From: Sphingobacterium rhinopitheci
Lineage (GTDB): Bacteria; Bacteroidota; Bacteroidia; Sphingobacteriales; Sphingobacteriaceae
Direction: 5' to 3'
DNA: 64,000 nt
Assembly (NCBI RefSeq): GCF_022627575.1
Contig: NZ_JADEYQ010000006.1
Coordinates: 62,001 to 126,000 of the forward strand
Program-made: the position numbers and the translations under genes
In this document: in pieces, positions 19,181 through 29,598 of the stretch
How positions within the stretch are numbered: position 1 is the first letter of the stretch
How the letters are laid out: every line of letters starts with the position of its first letter
The notes under the pieces: model-generated
Seen by the model: the letters and a program-made list of their open reading frames with translations, nothing else
Database searches by the model: none
Told to the model about the DNA's origin: nothing

Positions 19181-19882
19181 ATGTCCGAAGAGATCGTTAG
19201 GTTAGAAGGAGTAAATAAGATTTATCAAACAGGGGATACTACAATTACCGCTTTAGCTAAAACAGATATTTCCTTTCATGCTAATAAATTAACATTAATA
19301 ATGGGACCCTCTGGGTCGGGCAAAACTACCCTACTTTCTATTTTGGGTTGCGTGATATACCCTACTTCAGGCAAAGTATATTATAAAAATCAAGAAGTAA
19401 CTAAATGGAATGAAGATCAATTAGCCGATTTACGCTTAAAAGAAATAGGATTTGTATTCCAACAGTTCAATTTAATTGAGCCTTTGAATGCACTAGAAAA
19501 TGTAATGCAGCCATTGACATTGCAAAACATAGAAACACATACGGCACGCGAAAGATCTATTAAAGCTTTGGAAGCTGTTGGATTGGGCGAGCGCATGAAA
19601 AATCTACCCAAAAAATTAAGTGGTGGTCAAAAACAACGTGTAGCTATAGCGCGCGCATTAGTATCCGAACCCTCGATGATACTGTGTGATGAGCCTACAG
19701 CATCATTAGATTCAAAAAGTGCAAAAGTAATTATGTCCGAGCTTAAGCAATTATCTCAAACTGGTAAAGCGGTAATTATCGTTACGCACGATCTACGCTT
19801 GAGAGAATTTGCAGATCACATTATATACGTCGAAGAAGGACATGTGTCAACATCTATAAAAAATGAAGAAAATTATAAATAA
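19181..19882 (+). CDS. ABC transporter ATP-binding protein (LolD/MacB/DevA type)
   Basis: 233 residues. Walker A GPSGSGKTT (about 44-52), Q-loop FVFQQFNLI, signature LSGGQKQRVAIARAL, Walker B MILCDEPTASLD and the switch His in IVTHD are all intact. The lineage is that of ATPases serving FtsX-type permeases, not importers. Its last 20 nt overlap the start of the adaptor gene. With the following adaptor, permease and TolC genes it forms a complete tripartite export system. Confidence 0.9.
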   Translation: MSEEIVRLEGVNKIYQTGDTTITALAKTDISFHANKLTLIMGPSGSGKTTLLSILGCVIYPTSGKVYYKNQEVTKWNEDQLADLRLKEIGFVFQQFNLIEPLNALENVMQPLTLQNIETHTARERSIKALEAVGLGERMKNLPKKLSGGQKQRVAIARALVSEPSMILCDEPTASLDSKSAKVIMSELKQLSQTGKAVIIVTHDLRLREFADHIIYVEEGHVSTSIKNEENYK

Positions 19883-20819
19883 TATCTTTCTAATTAGTGC
19901 CTGTATTATGGCCATTTCCACTTCTTCTTGTGGTAACAAAAAGGAGAATAAAGTATATACTCCAAGTACAAGTGAGATTATACAACAAGTAGATACTGTA
20001 ATTGCTATAGGTAAAGTTACTGCAGAAAATGGAACAGCTTTGATCGCTTCCAGCACATCAGCTATGGTAAAGGATATCCTTATAAATGAAGGGGATACAG
20101 TACAAGTAGGCACTATACTTATGAAGCTTTCAAATAAATCAGGCAATATAGATGTTGCTATTGCTAATAGTAAGTTGCAAACAATCCAAGATCAAAATAC
20201 CATTACGCAGAAGGATATAGAAAGAGAGCAAATCAATTTAGCATTTCTAGAACAGAAGTATAAAACATCGAAATCACTCTTTGAGCAAGAAGCCGAAACA
20301 AAAGAAAATTATCTGAATGATGAATCAAATTACCTACAACAGCAGCAGCGTGTTGCAGGTTTAAAAAAGCAATTGCAGGTAAATCAAGCACAAGCAAAAG
20401 AACAAAAACTCAATATTGATAAAACAGCTATTACATTAGAAGACTATACTATTATTGCTCCGCAAGAAGGGATTATAACAAATCTGAACGCTAAGATTGG
20501 TCAAAATGTAAATACGAATGAATCATTGGGTGAAATAATAGACACAAAGAAAATTATTATTGAGGCTGAGGTAGATGAACTTTTTGCGGATCAAATAGCC
20601 GTTGGACAAGAGGTAACATTTATCAATATCAATACCAAACAGAATTTGGGAAAAGGCAAAATTATATACAGTTCGCCCACATTGATGAATAAATCCATTT
20701 TATACGAGACTGCTAATGAAGCTGACGATCGTAGAGTATTGCGTATAAAAATCAAACCTATCACAGGAAAGGAATTATTAATTAATGCGAAGGTAGAATG
20801 TCAAATAAAAATCAAGTAA
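19863..20819 (+). CDS. HlyD/DevB-type periplasmic adaptor lipoprotein
   Basis: 318 residues. Signal peptide with lipobox STSSC, so membrane-anchored by lipid. The adaptor plan is seen: lipoyl half (VKDILINEGDTVQVGTIL), a long alpha hairpin rich in Gln/Glu/Lys (about 95-190, with QDQNTITQKDIEREQ and QQQQRVAGLKKQL), the second lipoyl half (YTIIAPQEGIITNL) and a beta-barrel domain. It bridges the ABC permease and the outer-membrane channel. The start codon is inside the end of the ATPase gene, and the next gene starts 1 nt after its stop. Confidence 0.88.
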   Translation: MKKIINNIFLISACIMAISTSSCGNKKENKVYTPSTSEIIQQVDTVIAIGKVTAENGTALIASSTSAMVKDILINEGDTVQVGTILMKLSNKSGNIDVAIANSKLQTIQDQNTITQKDIEREQINLAFLEQKYKTSKSLFEQEAETKENYLNDESNYLQQQQRVAGLKKQLQVNQAQAKEQKLNIDKTAITLEDYTIIAPQEGIITNLNAKIGQNVNTNESLGEIIDTKKIIIEAEVDELFADQIAVGQEVTFININTKQNLGKGKIIYSSPTLMNKSILYETANEADDRRVLRIKIKPITGKELLINAKVECQIKIK

Positions 20820-20820
20820 T

Positions 20821-21954
20821 ATGTTAGGCTTAGCCTGGAAATTCATACGATTCGATAGAGCGAAAAGTGTTGGGGTCATCACAGCAATAGTAATCAGCAT
20901 ATTCCTAATTGGACAACAATTAAGCTTGCTTTTCTTTTTGATGGGATTGATGGGAAATTTGGTCGGAAATGCTCCTATTCAAGAGGATGAGATATGGGTA
21001 ATCGAAAGGCAGACGGACAATGTGAATGCTTTGAATGTAATAGATCAGCGTCTAGTACAGGAAATCGGTAGCTTACCTTTTATAGCTCAAGCGGAACCTG
21101 TCGTAATAGCATCAGGTCAGGCTACCTTTTTGGATGGGAAGACCGCTGCTGTCACATTAGTAGGCTCTGTAGCACCGTCATTTATGATGGGCCCTATTGA
21201 AAGTAAAATTAAGGAAGGCAATATTGAAGATTTAATGCAGCCATATGCCGTGTCAGCGGAATTTTTCAGTGCCAAGACATGGAGTACAACATTAAGCCTA
21301 GGTAAGGCTATCGAAATCAATGGAAAAAGCGCACAAATTAAAGTAATCACAAAAAATGCACAGGCATTTGGTGCTTCCTTAATGTATACAAGTATTGAAA
21401 ATGCACGATTTCTAGGCAATGTATCGCCAACAAAAATAAGTATCGTTATCGCACGTGTAAAAGATAAAGATCAAAAACAGGAAGTCATCCAACAGATCAA
21501 CACCTTGTATCCAAATCTTAAAGCTTGGGATATAGCCAAGTTACAATCCTCTACCGTAAAAGAAATTCTTATTAGTTCGAATATGGGTATGAGCTTTGGT
21601 ACATTAGTATTATTTGCGATGATATCGGGATTCTTTATTATCGGATTAACATTATATTCGTCCGCATTGGACCGTATCAAAGACTACGGAACATTGAAAG
21701 CAATAGGAGCTAAGAAAGGATATGTAAATAAACTAATCATAGCTCAGGCTTTTTTATATGCTATTATCGGCTACGTAATAGCCATATTCTTATTATATGG
21801 CTTCAAATTTGGCGTTGCTAATTCTGGGTTAGCTATTGATATAACTATTCCATTTGCCTTATTTTTATTATTTGTGACATTATTTATTTCTATAGGAGGT
21901 TCATTATTTGCAGTCCGAAAGATATCCAAACTTGAACCAGCATCTGTTTTTTAA
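20821..21954 (+). CDS. FtsX/DevC-type ABC export permease
   Basis: 377 residues with one N-terminal transmembrane helix (VGVITAIVISIFLIGQQLSLLFFLM), a periplasmic domain of about 200 residues, and three C-terminal helices of the FtsX fold. The conserved cytoplasmic link YSSALDRIKDYGTLKAIGAKKG is present. This topology fits permeases of the DevC/MacB group that export lipids, siderophores, peptides or glycolipids without a substrate pocket in the membrane. The gene lies between the adaptor and TolC genes with 1-2 nt gaps. Confidence 0.87.
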   Translation: MLGLAWKFIRFDRAKSVGVITAIVISIFLIGQQLSLLFFLMGLMGNLVGNAPIQEDEIWVIERQTDNVNALNVIDQRLVQEIGSLPFIAQAEPVVIASGQATFLDGKTAAVTLVGSVAPSFMMGPIESKIKEGNIEDLMQPYAVSAEFFSAKTWSTTLSLGKAIEINGKSAQIKVITKNAQAFGASLMYTSIENARFLGNVSPTKISIVIARVKDKDQKQEVIQQINTLYPNLKAWDIAKLQSSTVKEILISSNMGMSFGTLVLFAMISGFFIIGLTLYSSALDRIKDYGTLKAIGAKKGYVNKLIIAQAFLYAIIGYVIAIFLLYGFKFGVANSGLAIDITIPFALFLLFVTLFISIGGSLFAVRKISKLEPASVF

Positions 21955-21956
21955 TT

Positions 21957-23225
21957 ATGAAAAAAATCATTATATATTTATTAGCCACCCTTCCACTATC
22001 TATTAATGCACAAACATTAAGCATTCAAGAATTGTGGGATAAGCTAAACGAAACAAATATAGCGAGACAAAATCAATTGGAAGTTGAAATTTCAAATCAA
22101 GAATTAGCAATAGAACACTTGAACAAATTTCCAATAGTATATGGAGATATTAATTTACAAAGAAATCTGATAACACCTACAACCCCTGTACCAGCGATAG
22201 CATTTGATCCCTCGGCACAAGAAGGAGCTATATTACCCCTCAAATTCGCGACAAATTGGAATGCCAAAGCAGGAATACAAGCCGAATGGAAATTTTTTGA
22301 CCCAAGTAGAAAAACAACATTACAAGAAAAAAATATTCGTCTAGAAAAGGCACAAATAGAACAAAAACGTAGTGCACAAAATATAAAAAGGGATGCCACA
22401 TTAGCCTATACCAGTATCGTATTGGCAAGCTTACAACATCAAGCTGCCGTAGAAGATTCAATACTATATGAACAAATACTACGTACTACGAAAATACGCT
22501 ATGAGGCTGGCAGAGAGACAACAGAACAATTACTAAATGCGCAACAAGAATATGAGCGCAAAAAAATCCAGCTTTATGAAACATGGTCTATCCTATGTGA
22601 ATCTGACTTGGAATTACAAAAATATATTGAGACAAATACTATAGAAAAGTTGACAACAGGGATAGATGATATAAAAGAGGCTATAAAAGAATACGAGAAT
22701 ATAAACTACGATGCGCAAGTAAATACGCTTGACCTTAAACTAAATGAAAATGAGCGTCAATCCTTCAAAAGACAGCTTTTACCTTCTTTAACATTTAATG
22801 CATATTATGGTGCACAGTTTTTCAACAATAAGCTACACCTATCAAACTCAAACAATTGGTTTGGAAATAGCTACGCTAATGTTGCACTTCGCATTCCTAT
22901 TTCAACCTACTTAATACAAAATCCTACCTTAAATAAAATTAACAGTCAACAAATGCTCAACCAGATAAAATTAGATGATGTTAACAAATTAGATGAGATT
23001 CAACGCAATCAACGAAAACAAAAAATATTAGCTGCAGAGCAAAAAGTAAAATCTTATCAACGTATCGTGGATTTATCAAAGGAAAATTTAGAACAGAAAA
23101 AAATAGAATTTGAATCCGGGAGAATATTATTAAGTGATTACAACCTTATACTAAACAAATATAGCAGTAATCAGAAAGAACTTTGGCAAGCACAATACGA
23201 TTTAATTACAATTTTCGTAAATTAG
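21957..23225 (+). CDS. TolC family outer-membrane efflux protein
   Basis: 422 residues with signal peptide (IIIYLLATLPLSINAQ). Two long helical repeats with OEP character are visible: the first around LAYTSIVLASLQHQAAVEDSI, with YEAGRETTEQLLNAQQEYERKK, and the second near the C-terminus with FESGRILLSDYNLILNKYS. Both carry the Gly-x-x-x-x-x-(D/E)-(L/Y) turn of TolC repeats. It starts 2 nt after the permease stop and ends the export operon. No separate terminator was found directly after it; the next gene has its own -7 box at 23261. Confidence 0.88.
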   Translation: MKKIIIYLLATLPLSINAQTLSIQELWDKLNETNIARQNQLEVEISNQELAIEHLNKFPIVYGDINLQRNLITPTTPVPAIAFDPSAQEGAILPLKFATNWNAKAGIQAEWKFFDPSRKTTLQEKNIRLEKAQIEQKRSAQNIKRDATLAYTSIVLASLQHQAAVEDSILYEQILRTTKIRYEAGRETTEQLLNAQQEYERKKIQLYETWSILCESDLELQKYIETNTIEKLTTGIDDIKEAIKEYENINYDAQVNTLDLKLNENERQSFKRQLLPSLTFNAYYGAQFFNNKLHLSNSNNWFGNSYANVALRIPISTYLIQNPTLNKINSQQMLNQIKLDDVNKLDEIQRNQRKQKILAAEQKVKSYQRIVDLSKENLEQKKIEFESGRILLSDYNLILNKYSSNQKELWQAQYDLITIFVN

Positions 23226-23385: not shown

Positions 23386-23856
23386 ATGAAAAACATGGAC
23401 GATAAAATCAACATTTTATATGTTGATGATGAAGAAAACAATCTAATTTCGTTCAAAGCTAATTTTAGGATTAAATATAATGTTTTCACTGCTATAAGTG
23501 GCCAATCAGCATTAGAACTATTAGAGAAAACTAACATTTCCGTAATTATTACAGATCAGCGTATGCCAGAGATGACTGGAGTGGCATTCTTAGAGAAAGT
23601 ATGCGAGCTTTATCCCGACACAATACGCATCCTGCTGACAGGGTACGCGGATATAAGTGCCGTGATAGATGCTGTAAACAAAGGAAAAATCTACCAATAT
23701 CTGAGTAAACCATGGAATGAGAATGAGCTAGATCAAACTATTCAGGATGCCTATGAGCTATATTCTAAAAAACAAGAGACCATGGAGCAATTCTCTAAAT
23801 TGGAAGTAAGTAACGAACAATTAGAGTTTTTATTAAGACAGAGTCTTCTTTCTTAA
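23386..23856 (+). CDS. Single-domain response regulator (receiver only)
   Basis: 156 residues. CheY-like receiver: acidic pair in LYVDDEENN, phosphoacceptor Asp in IITDQRMPEM (about 56), Thr in LLTGYAD and Lys in LSKPWNENEL. The receiver is followed only by a short coiled tail (QETMEQFSKLEVSNEQLEF), so it has no output domain. It resembles the receiver at the N-terminus of the convergent hybrid kinase (shared LYVDDE/LYIDDE, SFKANFR, KPW blocks), which suggests duplication. It may be a phosphate sink or shuttle in that relay. Confidence 0.88.
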   Translation: MKNMDDKINILYVDDEENNLISFKANFRIKYNVFTAISGQSALELLEKTNISVIITDQRMPEMTGVAFLEKVCELYPDTIRILLTGYADISAVIDAVNKGKIYQYLSKPWNENELDQTIQDAYELYSKKQETMEQFSKLEVSNEQLEFLLRQSLLS

Positions 23857-23961: not shown

Positions 23962-25053
23962 TTACTTACTCGGTATTGTAATAGTAAAAGTAGTACCGAC
24001 ATTAAGAATCGATTCCAACTTAATATCTCCATTAAGTTTTACCAAAGCATTTTTCACATTATATAAACCTAACCCAGAACCTTGCATTTGACTTGTTGCT
24101 CTAAAGAATAATTTAAATACATTCTGCTTATGTTCATCAGGAATTCCTATTCCATTATCTTTAATTACAATTTTACATAAGCCATTTTCTACATTTATAT
24201 CTAAAATAACCTTCTTATTAGGTTCATTTTTTTGTTGATATTTTATTGAATTAGAAATTAAATTATGAAGAATCAATTCAATTACTGCCTTATCGCATTT
24301 AAACTTACTATTTTGATGCACAGATATTTGAAAATCCAACACATTGGTAGAAGTATAAATCTTATAGTAATTTTCAATATTCGTTGCTAAAAGTTTAAGA
24401 TCTATCTCTTCTAATTTCAACTCACCTCTTCTTAGCAGGTAATAATCTTTTAAACTATCAATATAGGCATCTAATTTGAGAACAGAGTTATTCATCAAAT
24501 CCAGTATATCATATATCTCCTCTAAGTTGTCAAACTCTTTGGCTAACGAAATAGCAGATGATATTCCAACCAATGGATCACGTAAATCATGACTTACACT
24601 GTAAGCGAACTTATCTAGTTCTCGATAGGCTTGTTCTAATTCTTGATTTTTCTTTTCTAGCAAAGAAGTAGCTAAATAAAACTTATTAGCTTCAATAATA
24701 GCAGAAAGAATATCTTCATTTTCCCAAGGCTTGCGAATAAATCTATAAATATTTCCCTTATTAATGGAATCAATTAATATTTCCATGTTTGCATACGCCG
24801 TCAATAAGATGCGTATAGGAGCAGGGAAATCAACTTTAATCCTTTCCAAAAAATTAATACCTAATTCATTAGGCATCATATGATCACAAAAGATAATCCT
24901 AATATTAGGATTCAAACGTAATACTTCCTCAGCCTCAACCGTAGATTGTGCTATATGTACAATACATGACAAACGAAAATTAGCCTTAAAACTTAATAAG
25001 TTATTAATTTCGTCATCAATATATAGAACTTCAATTTCTTTATCCATAAACAA
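23962..25053 (-). CDS. Receiver-histidine kinase hybrid (REC then HisKA/HATPase)
   Basis: 363 residues. The N-terminal receiver (acidic LYIDDEINN, Asp in IIFCDHMMP, Thr in LLTAYAN, Lys in RKPWEN) is joined by a coil to a kinase core: H-box YSVSHDLRDPLVGI (His about 153), N-box LILHNLISNSIKYQQ, G1 DNGIGIPDEHKQ and G2 GSGLGL. There is no transmembrane segment, so it is cytoplasmic and likely a relay kinase whose activity is set by phosphorylation of its receiver. Start may be Met1 (25053) or Met3 (25047). It is the last gene of the five-gene signalling operon, 16 nt after the membrane kinase. Confidence 0.88.
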   Translation of the reverse strand: MFMDKEIEVLYIDDEINNLLSFKANFRLSCIVHIAQSTVEAEEVLRLNPNIRIIFCDHMMPNELGINFLERIKVDFPAPIRILLTAYANMEILIDSINKGNIYRFIRKPWENEDILSAIIEANKFYLATSLLEKKNQELEQAYRELDKFAYSVSHDLRDPLVGISSAISLAKEFDNLEEIYDILDLMNNSVLKLDAYIDSLKDYYLLRRGELKLEEIDLKLLATNIENYYKIYTSTNVLDFQISVHQNSKFKCDKAVIELILHNLISNSIKYQQKNEPNKKVILDINVENGLCKIVIKDNGIGIPDEHKQNVFKLFFRATSQMQGSGLGLYNVKNALVKLNGDIKLESILNVGTTFTITIPSK

Positions 25054-25069
25054 TTATGTACCTAATACA

Positions 25070-27223
25070 TTACACGATTTGATTTACTGGTAGCTTAATA
25101 ATAAAAGTTGTTTTTTCACCTTCTACTGAGCTAACTATCAACTCACCATTATGCTTTAATACCGTGTTATATGCTATTGACATCCCTAAGCCCGTACCTT
25201 CACCCACATCTTTAGTAGTAAAGAATGGTTCAAAAATTTTATTAATGACAGCAGAAGGAATACCAATACCATTGTCTTCGATTAATATCTGCACAAACCC
25301 TTCATCAGCTAATAGAGTACTTTCTATCTTAATAATTCCTCCGGGTTTATTATTAAATTTTTTCTCTACAGCATAAATTCCATTCGTCAGAATATTTAAA
25401 AATACCTGATTCAATTTTCCAGGATAACACTCTATTTGTGGCAAATTACCTAATTTTTTATCTAATTGTATATTCTCAGACAATAAACTTCCAAGAATTA
25501 CCAATGTAGACTCAATTCCTAAATTAATATCTGCCTTCATTACAGCATCTTCGTCTACTCTAGAGAATATACGTAAACTCTTCACTATTTCTGCAGTTCG
25601 ACTCGCTCCATCATGCATACCTCTTAACAAGAAATCAATCTCCGACTTCAAGTAATCAATATCGAGCTCTCTCTTATAACTATCAATTCGAGTTTTTCTA
25701 TCTGAAGCTATCGAATTTTCTTCCAAAGCAACATTTTCAACATAAGAAAAGGCATCCCACACCATTTCTAAGTCACGTTTTAATGGTTTTACATTAGACG
25801 TCACAAAATTAATAGGATTATTAATTTCATGGGCTACTCCAGCTGTTAACTGACCTAAAGAAGCCATTTTTTCAGATTCTACGAGTTGAGATTGTGCTTC
25901 TTTCAAATCATGAATAGCATCTTGAAGAGAATGATTTGATAATTGCAACTCATGCGTACGCTCTTCAATTTTCTCTTCTAATATAATATTTTGCTCTCTA
26001 ATCAATCTGTCATTTTCCCGTAAAGCATTGAATTCTCTTTTCTGAGATTCTTCCTTTTCACGTCTATAAATATTCATTTTATTAGCCAACGCAAATGATA
26101 GTAATAAGGCTTCAATAGAAACACCCAATTGAACTATATAAGTTGTAAGTTGACTATATCTAATAACTCCAATATCCTTAAGTACAAAAACGATTACAGT
26201 AGATAAAAATATACCCCAAGCTATCAAAAATAAATTAGCTACTTTACTGCCTTTTCTTCGCACATAAAATGCAATGTATAACACAAAAAGAGAGCCTATT
26301 CCAGCTACAAAATTCACTAATTTGTAGCCCAATGAAACATCTACAAACAATAATAAAATAGCGACTGCATCTGCAATAATAATAATATTAAGATACACTC
26401 CAAATCGTCTTGTATAATCTTTAATACTTAAAAATGACCGCACAAAAAGTACAGATGCTATACCTGACATTGCGCCAGAAAATGGAACAATATAATTTAC
26501 TATAGCGTAATTTTCATACAAAAACCTATGAAATAACCCTAATACAGCAATTTGTGCAATCGTAACCCATAAGATGTAATTGACGTAATAAAAATACTGC
26601 AAATCCTTTAACGACAGGAATAGGAATAAATTATACAACAGCATAGCCAACATGAAGCCAATAAAAATTCCTGTTCGCAAATCAAACTTTAAAAGATTAT
26701 TTGCTAAATCATCTTTTTGATAAATCGACAATGGAATAAGCAATTGCATATTACTATTCGTTTTGAAGTAATAAGTAACATTATCCCCATATTCCATAAA
26801 AAATTTAAACGTTAAAAACTGATGATCAAACACACGGTTATTCTGTGTTTTATAAGATTCAATACTTATACTATCAACTACAGAGCTGTCTTTTACAATA
26901 TATAATGTAGCTGCGTTGAGCAATGGATTTTCAAGATTCAACACAAGATTTCTACAGTCGGAGTGATTAGAAACAGTAAACTTTAACCAGTAAGTAGAAT
27001 TTGTAATACCAAAGTTCAACACTTCACTATTACTTTCTTCGAACGAAACATTCGACTTCAATAATTGACCTATCGTCAACTTACTTGTTGGATCTTCATG
27101 ATAAGAGATACTCTTACCTATATAATTAGATTTTGCTTCTGTAAAATGAATTATATTAACAGCTTGGCCTTTAAAACAAGCTATTAATAAAATAAAACAC
27201 ATTATAAATCTATAATAGAACAT
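25070..27223 (-). CDS. 7TMR-DISM sensor histidine kinase
   Basis: 717 residues. Signal peptide (about 1-22, ending KGQA), then a periplasmic 7TMR-DISMED2 beta-sandwich (about 30-165; ITNSTYWLKFTVSNHSD is typical), seven transmembrane helices (about 180-385), a coiled coil (EEKIEERTHELQLSN and following), HisKA with H-box LGQLTAGVAHEINNPINFV (His about 465) and HATPase_c with DNGIGIPSAV and GTGLGMSIAYN. DISMED2 domains are thought to bind small ligands, often carbohydrates. No receiver is fused to it. It lies 6 nt after the ThiF-like gene, so the sensor and the enzyme are made together. Confidence 0.9.
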   Translation of the reverse strand: MFYYRFIMCFILLIACFKGQAVNIIHFTEAKSNYIGKSISYHEDPTSKLTIGQLLKSNVSFEESNSEVLNFGITNSTYWLKFTVSNHSDCRNLVLNLENPLLNAATLYIVKDSSVVDSISIESYKTQNNRVFDHQFLTFKFFMEYGDNVTYYFKTNSNMQLLIPLSIYQKDDLANNLLKFDLRTGIFIGFMLAMLLYNLFLFLSLKDLQYFYYVNYILWVTIAQIAVLGLFHRFLYENYAIVNYIVPFSGAMSGIASVLFVRSFLSIKDYTRRFGVYLNIIIIADAVAILLLFVDVSLGYKLVNFVAGIGSLFVLYIAFYVRRKGSKVANLFLIAWGIFLSTVIVFVLKDIGVIRYSQLTTYIVQLGVSIEALLLSFALANKMNIYRREKEESQKREFNALRENDRLIREQNIILEEKIEERTHELQLSNHSLQDAIHDLKEAQSQLVESEKMASLGQLTAGVAHEINNPINFVTSNVKPLKRDLEMVWDAFSYVENVALEENSIASDRKTRIDSYKRELDIDYLKSEIDFLLRGMHDGASRTAEIVKSLRIFSRVDEDAVMKADINLGIESTLVILGSLLSENIQLDKKLGNLPQIECYPGKLNQVFLNILTNGIYAVEKKFNNKPGGIIKIESTLLADEGFVQILIEDNGIGIPSAVINKIFEPFFTTKDVGEGTGLGMSIAYNTVLKHNGELIVSSVEGEKTTFIIKLPVNQIV

Positions 27224-27229
27224 AATCTT

Positions 27230-28321
27230 TTAATTAATAAATTCTATTGGATCAGTATTTAATATATCCTCTACATCAAAATACCAACGTCCAGAAATAC
27301 ACTTTTCACCTAATAAAATACGTCTTACTATGTCGGTAGTTATTCCGCCACCCATCGTAACAGATGAAGCTAATTGTGGCCACGAACGTATCGTTTTCCC
27401 CATTTGTGAGAATGCTTCAATCATCTTAGGTGACAATCTGTCTTTATCCACAATTTTCAAAATTAATTGTAATTTAGCTTCAGGTGATAAATCATTTAGA
27501 TTGGCCAATTCAGTTTCGCTAATTAAGCCGTGTAAAATACCACGAGTACCTTCTACATCAAATCTTTCAATATCTACCATACAACGATCATTCGTTTCCA
27601 TTACTACCGGAATCTGATATTCACGTGCTAATAATCGACTGGATAACTTCATATCCAGACTATCACATAACTCAATTAATACGTCTAACTGACCGTCTTT
27701 TAGAAAAAAGTCCTTCATATTTGAAGCATTAAGCCCCTCCATAAATACTTCAACTTCCAAATAAGGATCTATCTCAGCTATTTCTCTAGCAACAACAATA
27801 ACTTTAGATAGACCAAGATTATGTACTGATGTGCGTATTCTATTCAGATTACTTAGCTCAATAGTGTCAAAATCAGCTAAGCGAAGCTTGCCACAGACAC
27901 GCTCCATGGCTATGGTCAATGCTACAGATTGACCTACGGAAAGTCCAATTATACCTACACTCCTATCTTTAAGGATTGCTTGCTCTTCCGGAGATATTTT
28001 ATTATTGTTTCTATTAGTTCTGACTTCAAAAAACTCTTGCTCATCTAATAAATGAACGAGACGATTAGCCCAAGGATAATATACCCATGCACCGTAATAG
28101 GCTAATGATCTTCCGAGGAGTTCATTATGGATAAAATCTTCATATTCACTTTTATCTATTGTAGATTTATCAGGATTACGAACCTTATAAAGATCAACTA
28201 ACTGATCCTCAATGGTGTCATAAATAGCCATATCAGAATTAGATATTTTTAAATCATTTAATGAATTGAAATCAATTAAATTATCTAATCTAAAAATAAT
28301 AGGTTTAAATGAAGTAATCAT
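27230..28321 (-). CDS. Stand-alone E1/ThiF-like adenylyltransferase (Rv1355c-like)
   Basis: 363 residues. The N-terminal 100 residues include a conserved YYGAWVYYPWANRLVHLLD block. The Rossmann/E1 domain follows: VGIIGLSVGQSVALTIAME as the nucleotide loop, LRLADFDTIELSNLNR with the Asp and Arg used in adenylation, and the Lys in LGLSKVIVVARE. No Cys-x-x-Cys zinc site and no E1 catalytic Cys are apparent, so adenylation without thioester transfer is more likely. Rv1355c-type proteins usually carry a C-terminal nitroreductase-like domain; here the protein stops soon after the E1 fold (GRWYFDVEDIL). It sits between the acyltransferase and the sensor kinase. Confidence 0.8.
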   Translation of the reverse strand: MITSFKPIIFRLDNLIDFNSLNDLKISNSDMAIYDTIEDQLVDLYKVRNPDKSTIDKSEYEDFIHNELLGRSLAYYGAWVYYPWANRLVHLLDEQEFFEVRTNRNNNKISPEEQAILKDRSVGIIGLSVGQSVALTIAMERVCGKLRLADFDTIELSNLNRIRTSVHNLGLSKVIVVAREIAEIDPYLEVEVFMEGLNASNMKDFFLKDGQLDVLIELCDSLDMKLSSRLLAREYQIPVVMETNDRCMVDIERFDVEGTRGILHGLISETELANLNDLSPEAKLQLILKIVDKDRLSPKMIEAFSQMGKTIRSWPQLASSVTMGGGITTDIVRRILLGEKCISGRWYFDVEDILNTDPIEFIN

Positions 28322-28362
28322 TGGTAAATGTACTTGGTTTATAATAAACTAATGATATGAGG

Positions 28363-29175
28363 TTAAATGAAAATTTGAGGCTCATCAGCATTTAATATAG
28401 TTTCTTTATGTATATCTTTCAATTTGCTAATAACCTCCTTCAAATTCCATTTATCCATAAATGGTAATTCAATCTGATATTCGATTTCAATTTCTTTCTT
28501 TCTTAAAAGCTCGACACTGTTAATAGTAAGATTATTACGCATCCGATTAATAGCAATGCGCTCTAAATCTTCTGCTAAAGAAAGTTCCTTTACATCAGGC
28601 AATAGCATGGTCGTAGCTATTAAATCCAATTTGGGGTAATAAAATGTACCGTCATTACCAACACTAGATTCTAATTTATAACCAACACTTTCTGCCATCT
28701 TAACAGTATATGGCGCACAAAGCGCAAATAAGGACTGAAGACCTATCTGAGTAGAAATCGCAACAGCAGCTCTCGTCAAAAAAATACTCCCTACTCCATA
28801 TCCAGCAATCTCCCTTGAGTTCCATAGCCCGCATACTTCTCCGGTTCCATATTGAGCATATTGCCAGACTAAATCAAATATTTTATTATCCAATTTTCCG
28901 GTAGCTTCTTCGATAGGTAAAGGTTGAGATCCTCCCGATACATGAACCCTAGCACCTCCATATACGAACTGGCCATCTAATGACTCGACTATTAGAACAA
29001 ATGCTCCTGGATTAAACATCCAATCATTTCTTGAAGAAGTCACCTTTTTAACACCAATCGCTGTTAACACATTAGCATGTCCCTCAATAAACAATTCACA
29101 TGCTTTTGGGTCATCTAGTGCTCTAAAAGCACGAAGGCGTACCACAGGACGTCCACTATTTAAAGTTAAACTCAC
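28363..29175 (-). CDS. GNAT-like acyltransferase of unknown substrate
   Basis: 270 residues. After a short lead (RLRAFRALDDPKACELFIEGH) a GNAT-type core is visible: strands FVLIVESLDGQFVYGGARVHV, then EVCGLWNSREIAGYGVGSIFLTRAAVAI, where the GYGVG turn with the following helix looks like the acyl-CoA/acyl-carrier phosphate loop, then the 'A-x-x-x-x-x-x-E-x-x-G' end (KMAESVGYKLE). The Trp-Met-Phe-Asn and GGARVHV elements recall autoinducer-synthase/N-acyl amino-acid synthase branches of the superfamily, but I cannot assign one. It is the second gene of the signalling operon, 18 nt after the CheY-like gene and 41 nt before the ThiF-like gene. Confidence 0.6.
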   Translation of the reverse strand: MSLTLNSGRPVVRLRAFRALDDPKACELFIEGHANVLTAIGVKKVTSSRNDWMFNPGAFVLIVESLDGQFVYGGARVHVSGGSQPLPIEEATGKLDNKIFDLVWQYAQYGTGEVCGLWNSREIAGYGVGSIFLTRAAVAISTQIGLQSLFALCAPYTVKMAESVGYKLESSVGNDGTFYYPKLDLIATTMLLPDVKELSLAEDLERIAINRMRNNLTINSVELLRKKEIEIEYQIELPFMDKWNLKEVISKLKDIHKETILNADEPQIFI

Positions 29176-29193
29176 GTTACAAGTATATTTTAA

Positions 29194-29598
29194 TTATTTA
29201 AAATAAGCATCTAGTACAGAAAACAATTTATCCTTATCCAAGGGCTTATTGAAATATCCTTTTACGAAAGGATATTCTTTAGATTTATTAATATCAATAT
29301 CATTATCCGAGGAACTAACGATAAAAAAAGGCGACTTAGTTAGTATTTCATGATTATGCAAAACTAAAGCATCCAAAAACTGCCATCCATTCAAAATAGG
29401 CATATTAATATCTACAAATACTACTTTAGGCATCAAATTAGTTTCGGTTGCATTTTCTATAAAATAGTCCAACGCACTCTTTCCATTATCAAAGACAATT
29501 ACTTCTATTCTACCATTATCATATTTCTCTACTAATTTTTGAAAAATAAAGCAAAAAATACTATTATCGTCAATTAATACAATGCGCTGTACCTCCAT
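29194..29598 (-). CDS. CheY-like single-domain response regulator
   Basis: 134 residues and little else than a receiver: acidic pair in IVLIDDNSIF, phosphoacceptor Asp in VVFVDINMPILNGW (about 57), Ser/Ser at IVSSSDND in the Thr position, and Lys in YFNKPLDKDKL. No output domain. It is the first gene of the five-gene operon with the acyltransferase, ThiF-like enzyme and two kinases. It could receive phosphate from either kinase and act by protein binding. Confidence 0.9.
   Translation of the reverse strand: MEVQRIVLIDDNSIFCFIFQKLVEKYDNGRIEVIVFDNGKSALDYFIENATETNLMPKVVFVDINMPILNGWQFLDALVLHNHEILTKSPFFIVSSSDNDIDINKSKEYPFVKGYFNKPLDKDKLFSVLDAYFK

Follow-up and report, generated by a model that had tools for sequence, protein, structure and literature searches.

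We examined a cluster of five minus-strand genes in a 64,000-nucleotide stretch of the Sphingobacterium rhinopitheci genome (contig NZ_JADEYQ010000006.1, positions 62,001 to 126,000; hereafter the window). The genes encode, in order, a CheY-like receiver protein, an acyltransferase that is a putative N-acyl amino acid synthase (NAS), a ThiF-like enzyme, a 7TMR-DISM sensor kinase, and a relay protein joining a receiver to a second kinase (Table 1). Comparison with related loci indicates that the cluster is probably a self-contained, polymorphic module for the synthesis and perception of a signal, in which a fatty-acyl amino acid would be read by the adjacent kinase. We read it as a signal-and-receptor module on the ground that, between near relatives, the chemistry gene and the kinase's sensing half are exchanged jointly and the rest of the locus is kept.

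Of 300 genomes of the order, 162 carry the synthase, spread over 16 of its 17 genera; in a draw across the phylum it was found in 13 of 395 genomes, 4 of the 13 in the family of S. rhinopitheci. Loci were drawn from 120 of the 162 synthase-positive genomes, with relatives from the contig search taken as the best 80 of 529. The resulting 210 loci gave 178 distinct loci, mostly from Sphingobacteriaceae, after removal of duplicates (same NAS and kinase C-termini). The position held by the ThiF-like gene in the window is an exchangeable tailoring slot, occupied by a ThiF domain fused to a flavin desaturase (ThiF+desaturase) in 68 distinct loci, by ThiF alone in 59, by a class I S-adenosylmethionine (SAM) methyltransferase in 48, by an ICMT-like membrane protein in two and by an unassigned gene in one.

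The initial annotation had named rare adjacency of enzyme and kinase genes in relatives as a sign against a module. The 7TMR-DISM kinase is present in 177 of the 178 distinct loci, and in 175 of these 177 the synthase, one tailoring gene and the kinase are contiguous on one strand; the association of these genes is therefore not due to chance. The exceptions are L084, with a split ThiF+desaturase, and L195, which is cut off by a contig end. L084 (9358-11666) carries the ThiF+desaturase as two overlapping open reading frames (ORFs), with an additional receiver gene between these and the synthase. Among the nine loci of the phylum-wide draw outside the family, a DISM kinase follows the enzyme genes in all nine. 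Within Sphingobacterium, every synthase-positive genome (48 of 48) has the sensor half of the kinase at E <= 4e-135; among the synthase-negative genomes, one matches at E <= 1e-40 (3e-43). Across the order, the sensor match is at least as good as E 7.2e-99 in 161 of the 162 synthase-positive genomes, and only the genome of locus L086 falls short of it, at 4.2e-74.

Trees were compared for 165 of the 178 distinct loci (13 were left out: class IC or unknown, missing or short relay gene, missing or short kinase). On these trees the tailoring label changes between methyltransferase and ThiF once for the sensor half, compared with 17 times for the kinase half, 16 for the relay kinase and 14 for the synthase; shuffled labels give approximately 40 changes. 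Trees of DISMED2 only and of 7TM only each require one change. When the label is scored in three states (ThiF, ThiF+desaturase, methyltransferase), it changes 5 times for the sensor, 30 for the kinase half, 27 for the relay and 22 for the synthase. Presence of the desaturase among the 120 ThiF loci changes 3 times on the ThiF tree and 4 times on the sensor tree (kinase, 13; relay, 12; synthase, 10). In 80-residue windows along the kinase, taken from the 115 loci with the gene order synthase-tailoring-kinase, we counted 1-2 changes through residues 361-440 and 15-19 from residues 401-480 onward. The boundary of co-inheritance, as judged from these windows, is near residue 430, at the 7TM/kinase junction.

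The same division is seen in pairwise identities. None of 5400 pairs of different tailoring class (0/5400) has sensor halves more than 39.5% identical. An earlier set of 119 loci contained twelve different-class pairs with relay identity of at least 85%, in which the sensors are 26-30% and the kinase halves 78-99% identical; these pairs share members and, being drawn from few lineages, are not independent. In the clearest comparison, between L041 (ThiF) and L117 (methyltransferase), the synthases are 98%, the kinase halves 99% and the relay proteins 99% identical, and the sensors 30%. At the DNA level the two loci are near 48% identical over a block of ~2.4 kb, extending from the synthase end to approximately codon 425 of the kinase gene, and mostly 93-100% identical on both flanks, with a further diverged stretch of ~300 bases immediately 5' of the synthase. 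By these sequence comparisons the sensor half is inherited with the tailoring enzyme, and not with the kinase half or the rest of the locus, a polymorphism of the pherotype kind.

As neighbours, the tailoring gene and the sensor half could also travel together through physical linkage. If linkage were the whole explanation, the relay would sense another cue (for example from the envelope, or a sugar) and control production of N-acyl amino acid lipids, the neighbouring genes being too diverged to recombine between. The gene nearest the sensor does correlate best with it in both gene orders: in loci of the order ThiF-NAS-HK (HK, histidine kinase) the NAS-sensor partial correlation (0.41) exceeds that of ThiF and sensor (0.16), and pairwise partial correlations did not separate function from linkage. 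Same-class pairs can also diverge unevenly, as in L061 and L172 (ThiF 77%, NAS 83%, sensor 37% identity) and in the reverse case of L088 and L254 (ThiF 55%, sensor 68%). The NAS, however, adjoins the tailoring gene on its other side, and yet the half of the synthase next to that gene switches 14 times in the same 115 loci, the sensor once. Linkage also leaves unexplained why the sensor, unlike the NAS, falls into two deep types without intermediates, and why co-inheritance stops at the 7TM/kinase junction. We consider linkage alone an unlikely explanation, one with which the predicted binding of carbohydrates by DISMED2 (PMC6107284) and the stress-associated roles also considered for oxazolones by the authors of PMC12856293 would agree.

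The chemistry expected of a signal-and-receptor module was assessed from protein families and predicted folds. The initial annotation described a stand-alone E1-like adenylyltransferase; the ThiF domain is confirmed, but the label undersells the protein, which matches NF005901, the Rv1355c/TrzS family, with E 1e-133 and 447.2 bits over profile positions 10-340 of 722. It falls below the curated whole-protein cut-off of that model (476 bits) because the second half is absent; a relative in which both ThiF and desaturase are present (L051) scores 833 bits. From its sequence, the window protein corresponds to the N-terminal (cyclase) half of Rv1355c/TrzS proteins and lacks their flavin desaturase half. 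Residues G123, G126, G130, D150, D152, N158, N160, R161, K173 and D220 are invariant in 127 of 127 ThiF sequences, with roles in nucleotide binding and adenylation assigned by analogy to E1 and MoeB. The adenylating Asp/Arg/Lys set, frequent loss of which the initial annotation had foreseen as evidence against a module, is thus unchanged throughout. A second ThiF-family match in the same genome (L001, G000:C62:95555-96244) has one in-frame TAG within the matched stretch.

Rv1355c is TrzS, which together with TrzA yields N-acyl tryptazolones, its ThiF part cyclising and its flavin part desaturating (PMC12856293). The related TyzABC yields tyrazolones (PMC10404671), and the same gene trio has been tied to N-acyl dehydrotyrosines (PMC12479983). 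Two actinobacterial plasmids carry further Rv1355c-type genes. In L265 (3923-5721, Streptomyces plasmid) a stand-alone Rv1355c-type ThiF gene is followed directly by a GNAT gene that, unlike the NAS, matches Pfam GNAT models, and the ThiF/acyltransferase pairing may have arisen more than once. In L264 (1867-6115, Rhodococcus plasmid) a GGDEF gene lies near the Rv1355c gene, which recalls the cyclic di-GMP (c-di-GMP) neighbours described in M. tuberculosis (PMC12856293).

The acyltransferase had no match to Pfam or NCBIfam models up to E 1. Its AlphaFold2 model (pLDDT 89.7) gave FeeM (2g0b) as the top Foldseek hit (E 1.3e-7), with the coenzyme A-dependent acyl-homoserine lactone (AHL) synthase MesI among the next (E 3.7e-7). 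VIA-align likewise ranked FeeM first, with Z 16.3 and 2.8 A over 180 aligned residues, and the AHL synthase BjaI and the Pseudomonas GNAT protein 1xeb tied with FeeM within 1 Z. Given these near-ties, the fold fits a FeeM-like role and does not fix the substrate. The predicted structure thus agrees with the GNAT-like acyltransferase of the initial annotation and places the protein in the FeeM/AHL-synthase GNAT fold as a putative N-acyl amino acid synthase. The profile match between the NAS and a 260-aa protein adjoining an actinobacterial Rv1355c protein was weak, at 8.9 bits and an E of 0.0074 in a small set.

An E1-like family and a GNAT fold could also belong to enzymes of protein modification, the ThiF-like enzyme adenylating the carboxylate of a protein or peptide and the acyltransferase acylating a protein. 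This is very improbable, given that the ThiF-like protein falls in the Rv1355c/TrzS family of small-molecule cyclases, that the acyltransferase fold is closest to FeeM, and that the tailoring slot is also used by methyltransferases. The slot methyltransferases match Methyltransf_25/11, and the ICMT-like membrane proteins, found in two genomes of another family (L189, 8762-9403; L192, 7203-7844), match the ICMT family. Three unrelated enzyme types thus occupy the slot, and each is of a kind able to act on a carboxylate: ThiF activates a carboxylate, and in ICMT enzymes the group that is methylated is the carboxylate of a lipidated amino acid. We propose as common denominator that an N-acyl amino acid would have its free acid group capped, giving a neutral molecule like an AHL.

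We infer the substrates, product, export, ligand recognition and order of the relay as follows. The NAS would N-acylate an amino acid with a fatty acyl group, and the tailoring enzyme would cap the free carboxylate of the N-acyl amino acid. In S. rhinopitheci the TrzS-type ThiF domain would adenylate and cyclise it to an acyl-oxazolone; in relatives, ThiF with its fused flavin desaturase would act at this step, or a methyltransferase would produce a methyl ester. The capped, neutral product would leave the cell and bind to the neighbouring kinase at its DISMED2/7TM half, changing kinase activity, and phosphate would pass to the relay protein and the two receiver-only proteins. The type of signal and the sensor half would make up an exchangeable cassette, or 'pherotype', with synthase and relay staying in place. 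The central proposal of the initial annotation, that the enzymes make a small molecule sensed by the kinase, gains support from the contiguity of the genes, the invariant ThiF positions and the co-inheritance of sensor and tailoring gene, with the product as the presumed ligand.

Like the correlations and same-class pairs described above, several observations weigh against this scheme. A search for the flavin desaturase (nitroreductase superfamily) gave no match in the S. rhinopitheci genome, in a search that had no known match as a control. The expected product is therefore a saturated oxazolone, a compound expected to be labile and reactive, which would be either the signal itself or opened by a further step. 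Folds do not single out carboxyl methylation by the slot methyltransferase: the best matches are the uncharacterised methyltransferase 3mgg and LahSb, and below them a carboxyl methyltransferase (JHAMT) is mixed with N- and S-methyltransferases, so carboxyl methylation is not established by the predicted fold. A Pfam scan found no DNA-binding output domain among the six module proteins. L086 keeps the NAS and the ThiF+desaturase without a kinase. Conversely, 86 synthase-negative genomes of the order contain a sensor relative that matches less strongly. The best of these, at 1.8e-98, comes close to the weakest synthase-positive genomes (7.2e-99, the genome of L086 apart), and the gap over the order is therefore narrow. 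One Sphingobacterium genome (G144) contains a second receiver-DISM kinase-relay-receiver locus with no synthase or tailoring gene (L261, 4543-8951), a possible orphan receptor that could be an eavesdropper or an unrelated sensor.

The locus polymorphism might instead record an arms race, if the module made an antimicrobial product and the kinase sensed it for self-regulation or immunity, as kinases of lantibiotic producers sense their own product. Such a competition module appears quite improbable. Against it, though weakly, the flanking ORFs differ in length and strand between lineages, so that no immunity or export gene stands out among these unannotated flanks. Antimicrobial activity has been reported for N-acyl tyrosine derivatives and N-acyl alanine methyl esters (PMC12856293; PMC11580390) and would be consistent with a role in competition.

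The signal-and-receptor reading can be set beside several known systems. The mycobacterial trzAS and tyzABC loci and oxzAB of P. rubra (genus Pseudoalteromonas) share with the window an amino acid N-acyltransferase gene (putative in the window) that adjoins a ThiF-like cyclase gene, and many relatives' loci (68/178) carry the flavin desaturase fused as in TrzS. They differ in that the S. rhinopitheci genome is without a detected desaturase, and in that the enzyme pair is here tied to a 7TMR-DISM kinase relay and the slot is open to methyltransferases. Synthase-kinase pairs are also known in LuxM/LuxN and CqsA/CqsS, where a signal synthase gene likewise adjoins that of a multi-transmembrane sensor kinase; the synthase, tailoring step, sensor domain and relay are different. 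The products of TrzAS and TyzABC were demonstrated with recombinant strains and enzyme or extract assays, and a possible signalling role, together with c-di-GMP neighbours, has been raised for oxazolone genes by the authors of PMC12856293 (PMC12856293, PMC10404671). The initial statement that no system with this gene set had been described stands in part: the enzyme pair and its chemistry are published (PMC10404671, PMC12856293), but we did not find in print that it is coupled to a sensor kinase with an exchangeable sensor, nor that these lipids are predicted to be signals read by that sensor. Among the open-licence papers listed, none joined 7TMR-DISM with ThiF or described this enzyme-sensor module.

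Compared by architecture only, the Ralstonia phcBSRQ operon follows the same plan: a signal-making methyltransferase, a membrane histidine kinase, a receiver-histidine kinase and a receiver-only protein. PhcR combines a receiver and a kinase and PhcQ is a receiver protein, neither having a DNA-binding domain (PMC8578825). The type of signal, a 3-hydroxy fatty acid methyl ester, tracks PhcB and PhcS, and PhcR and PhcQ follow phylotype (PMC8578825), the same evolutionary pattern as here, with signal enzyme and sensor varying apart from the relay. The receiver-only genes of the window differ in lying at the start of the operon and convergent to it, not at its end, and the module has an extra, putative N-acyl amino acid synthase, a DISMED2/7TM sensor and proposed carboxyl-capping chemistry that is exchangeable, with no PhcA identified. 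Polymorphic signalling comparable to that proposed here is known from the staphylococcal agr groups. In Bacillus, distinct communication groups are coupled to polymorphic comQXP (PMC4408185), again a polymorphic signalling locus; here the putative signal is a small-molecule lipid and not a peptide, and the swap puts an unrelated enzyme family in place. By analogy, the locus is best read as a module that would be built like Ralstonia phcBSRQ and evolve like the Bacillus comQXP pherotypes.

ORFs and Pfam matches confirm the five minus-strand genes of the initial annotation, their order and their spacing of 6-41 nt; from the receiver gene to the relay gene the gaps are 18, 41, 6 and 16 nt. The five-gene set is real but incomplete. 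The convergent receiver-only gene RR2 also belongs to the module (Table 1), and we count it in because its family recurs near the synthase (164 of the 178 distinct loci). The relay-protein family is near the synthase in 168 loci and the CheY-like receiver family in 103; the gene of the latter is 5' of the synthase in some Sphingobacterium loci and, in many loci from other genera, 3' of the relay gene. The 7TMR-DISM kinase matches 7TMR-DISMED2 (E 4e-26; 92.0 bits, cut-off 22), 7TMR-DISM_7TM (E 4e-40; 138.6 bits, cut-off 29) and HATPase_c (76.4 bits, cut-off 26.4), and its HisKA match of 19.6 bits is under the Pfam cut-off of 26.9. The phospho-acceptor His of this kinase, the Asp of the relay receiver and the His of the relay kinase are all kept in 165 of 165 loci.

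Table 1. Features of the putative signalling module, in window coordinates.
Feature	Coordinates	Strand	Basis
CheY-like response regulator (receiver only), opening gene of the operon	29194-29598	-	ORF, 134 aa; Pfam Response_reg, E 6e-12
FeeM-like acyltransferase, putative N-acyl amino acid synthase (NAS)	28363-29175	-	270 aa, GTG start; predicted structure
ThiF-like cyclase (putative), exchangeable tailoring slot	27230-28321	-	363 aa; Pfam ThiF, E 4e-18; NF005901
7TMR-DISM kinase, whole gene	25070-27223	-	717 aa; Pfam domains
Sensor half of 7TMR-DISM kinase, residues 1-410	25994-27223	-	Pfam DISMED2 36-169, 7TM 183-381
Kinase half of 7TMR-DISM kinase (HisKA-like, HATPase_c)	25070-25993	-	Pfam
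Relay protein, receiver + HisKA + HATPase_c (PhcR-like architecture)	23962-25053	-	363 aa; Pfam
Convergent receiver-only protein RR2	23386-23856	+	ORF; Pfam Response_reg, E 6e-20

The module is on contig 57 of the search set of this 3.69-Mb genome and has a G+C content of 0.22-0.39 per 500 bases, similar to its flanks. Just before RR2, at 19863-23225 (+), are three genes that by eye resemble those for a membrane-fusion protein, an FtsX-type permease and a TolC-like outer-membrane protein; this trio could export something.

Workers in the field regard the purpose of bacterial acyl-oxazolones as a major unresolved question (PMC12856293), and few 7TMR-DISM receptors are described as functionally characterised (PMC6107284). 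We lean, by a little, towards the view that Sphingobacteriaceae and some other Bacteroidota use an undescribed class of autoinducer, N-acyl amino acids capped either by methyl esterification or by closure to a saturated or desaturated oxazolone and read by dedicated 7TMR-DISM kinases, with cassettes of chemotype plus sensor swapped between close relatives as communication groups. If true, this would give acyl-oxazolones a function and 7TMR-DISM receptors a class of ligand, and would provide a candidate native lipid quorum-sensing system in Bacteroidota, in which the natural cassette swaps would be ready matched and mismatched pairs for ligand specificity.

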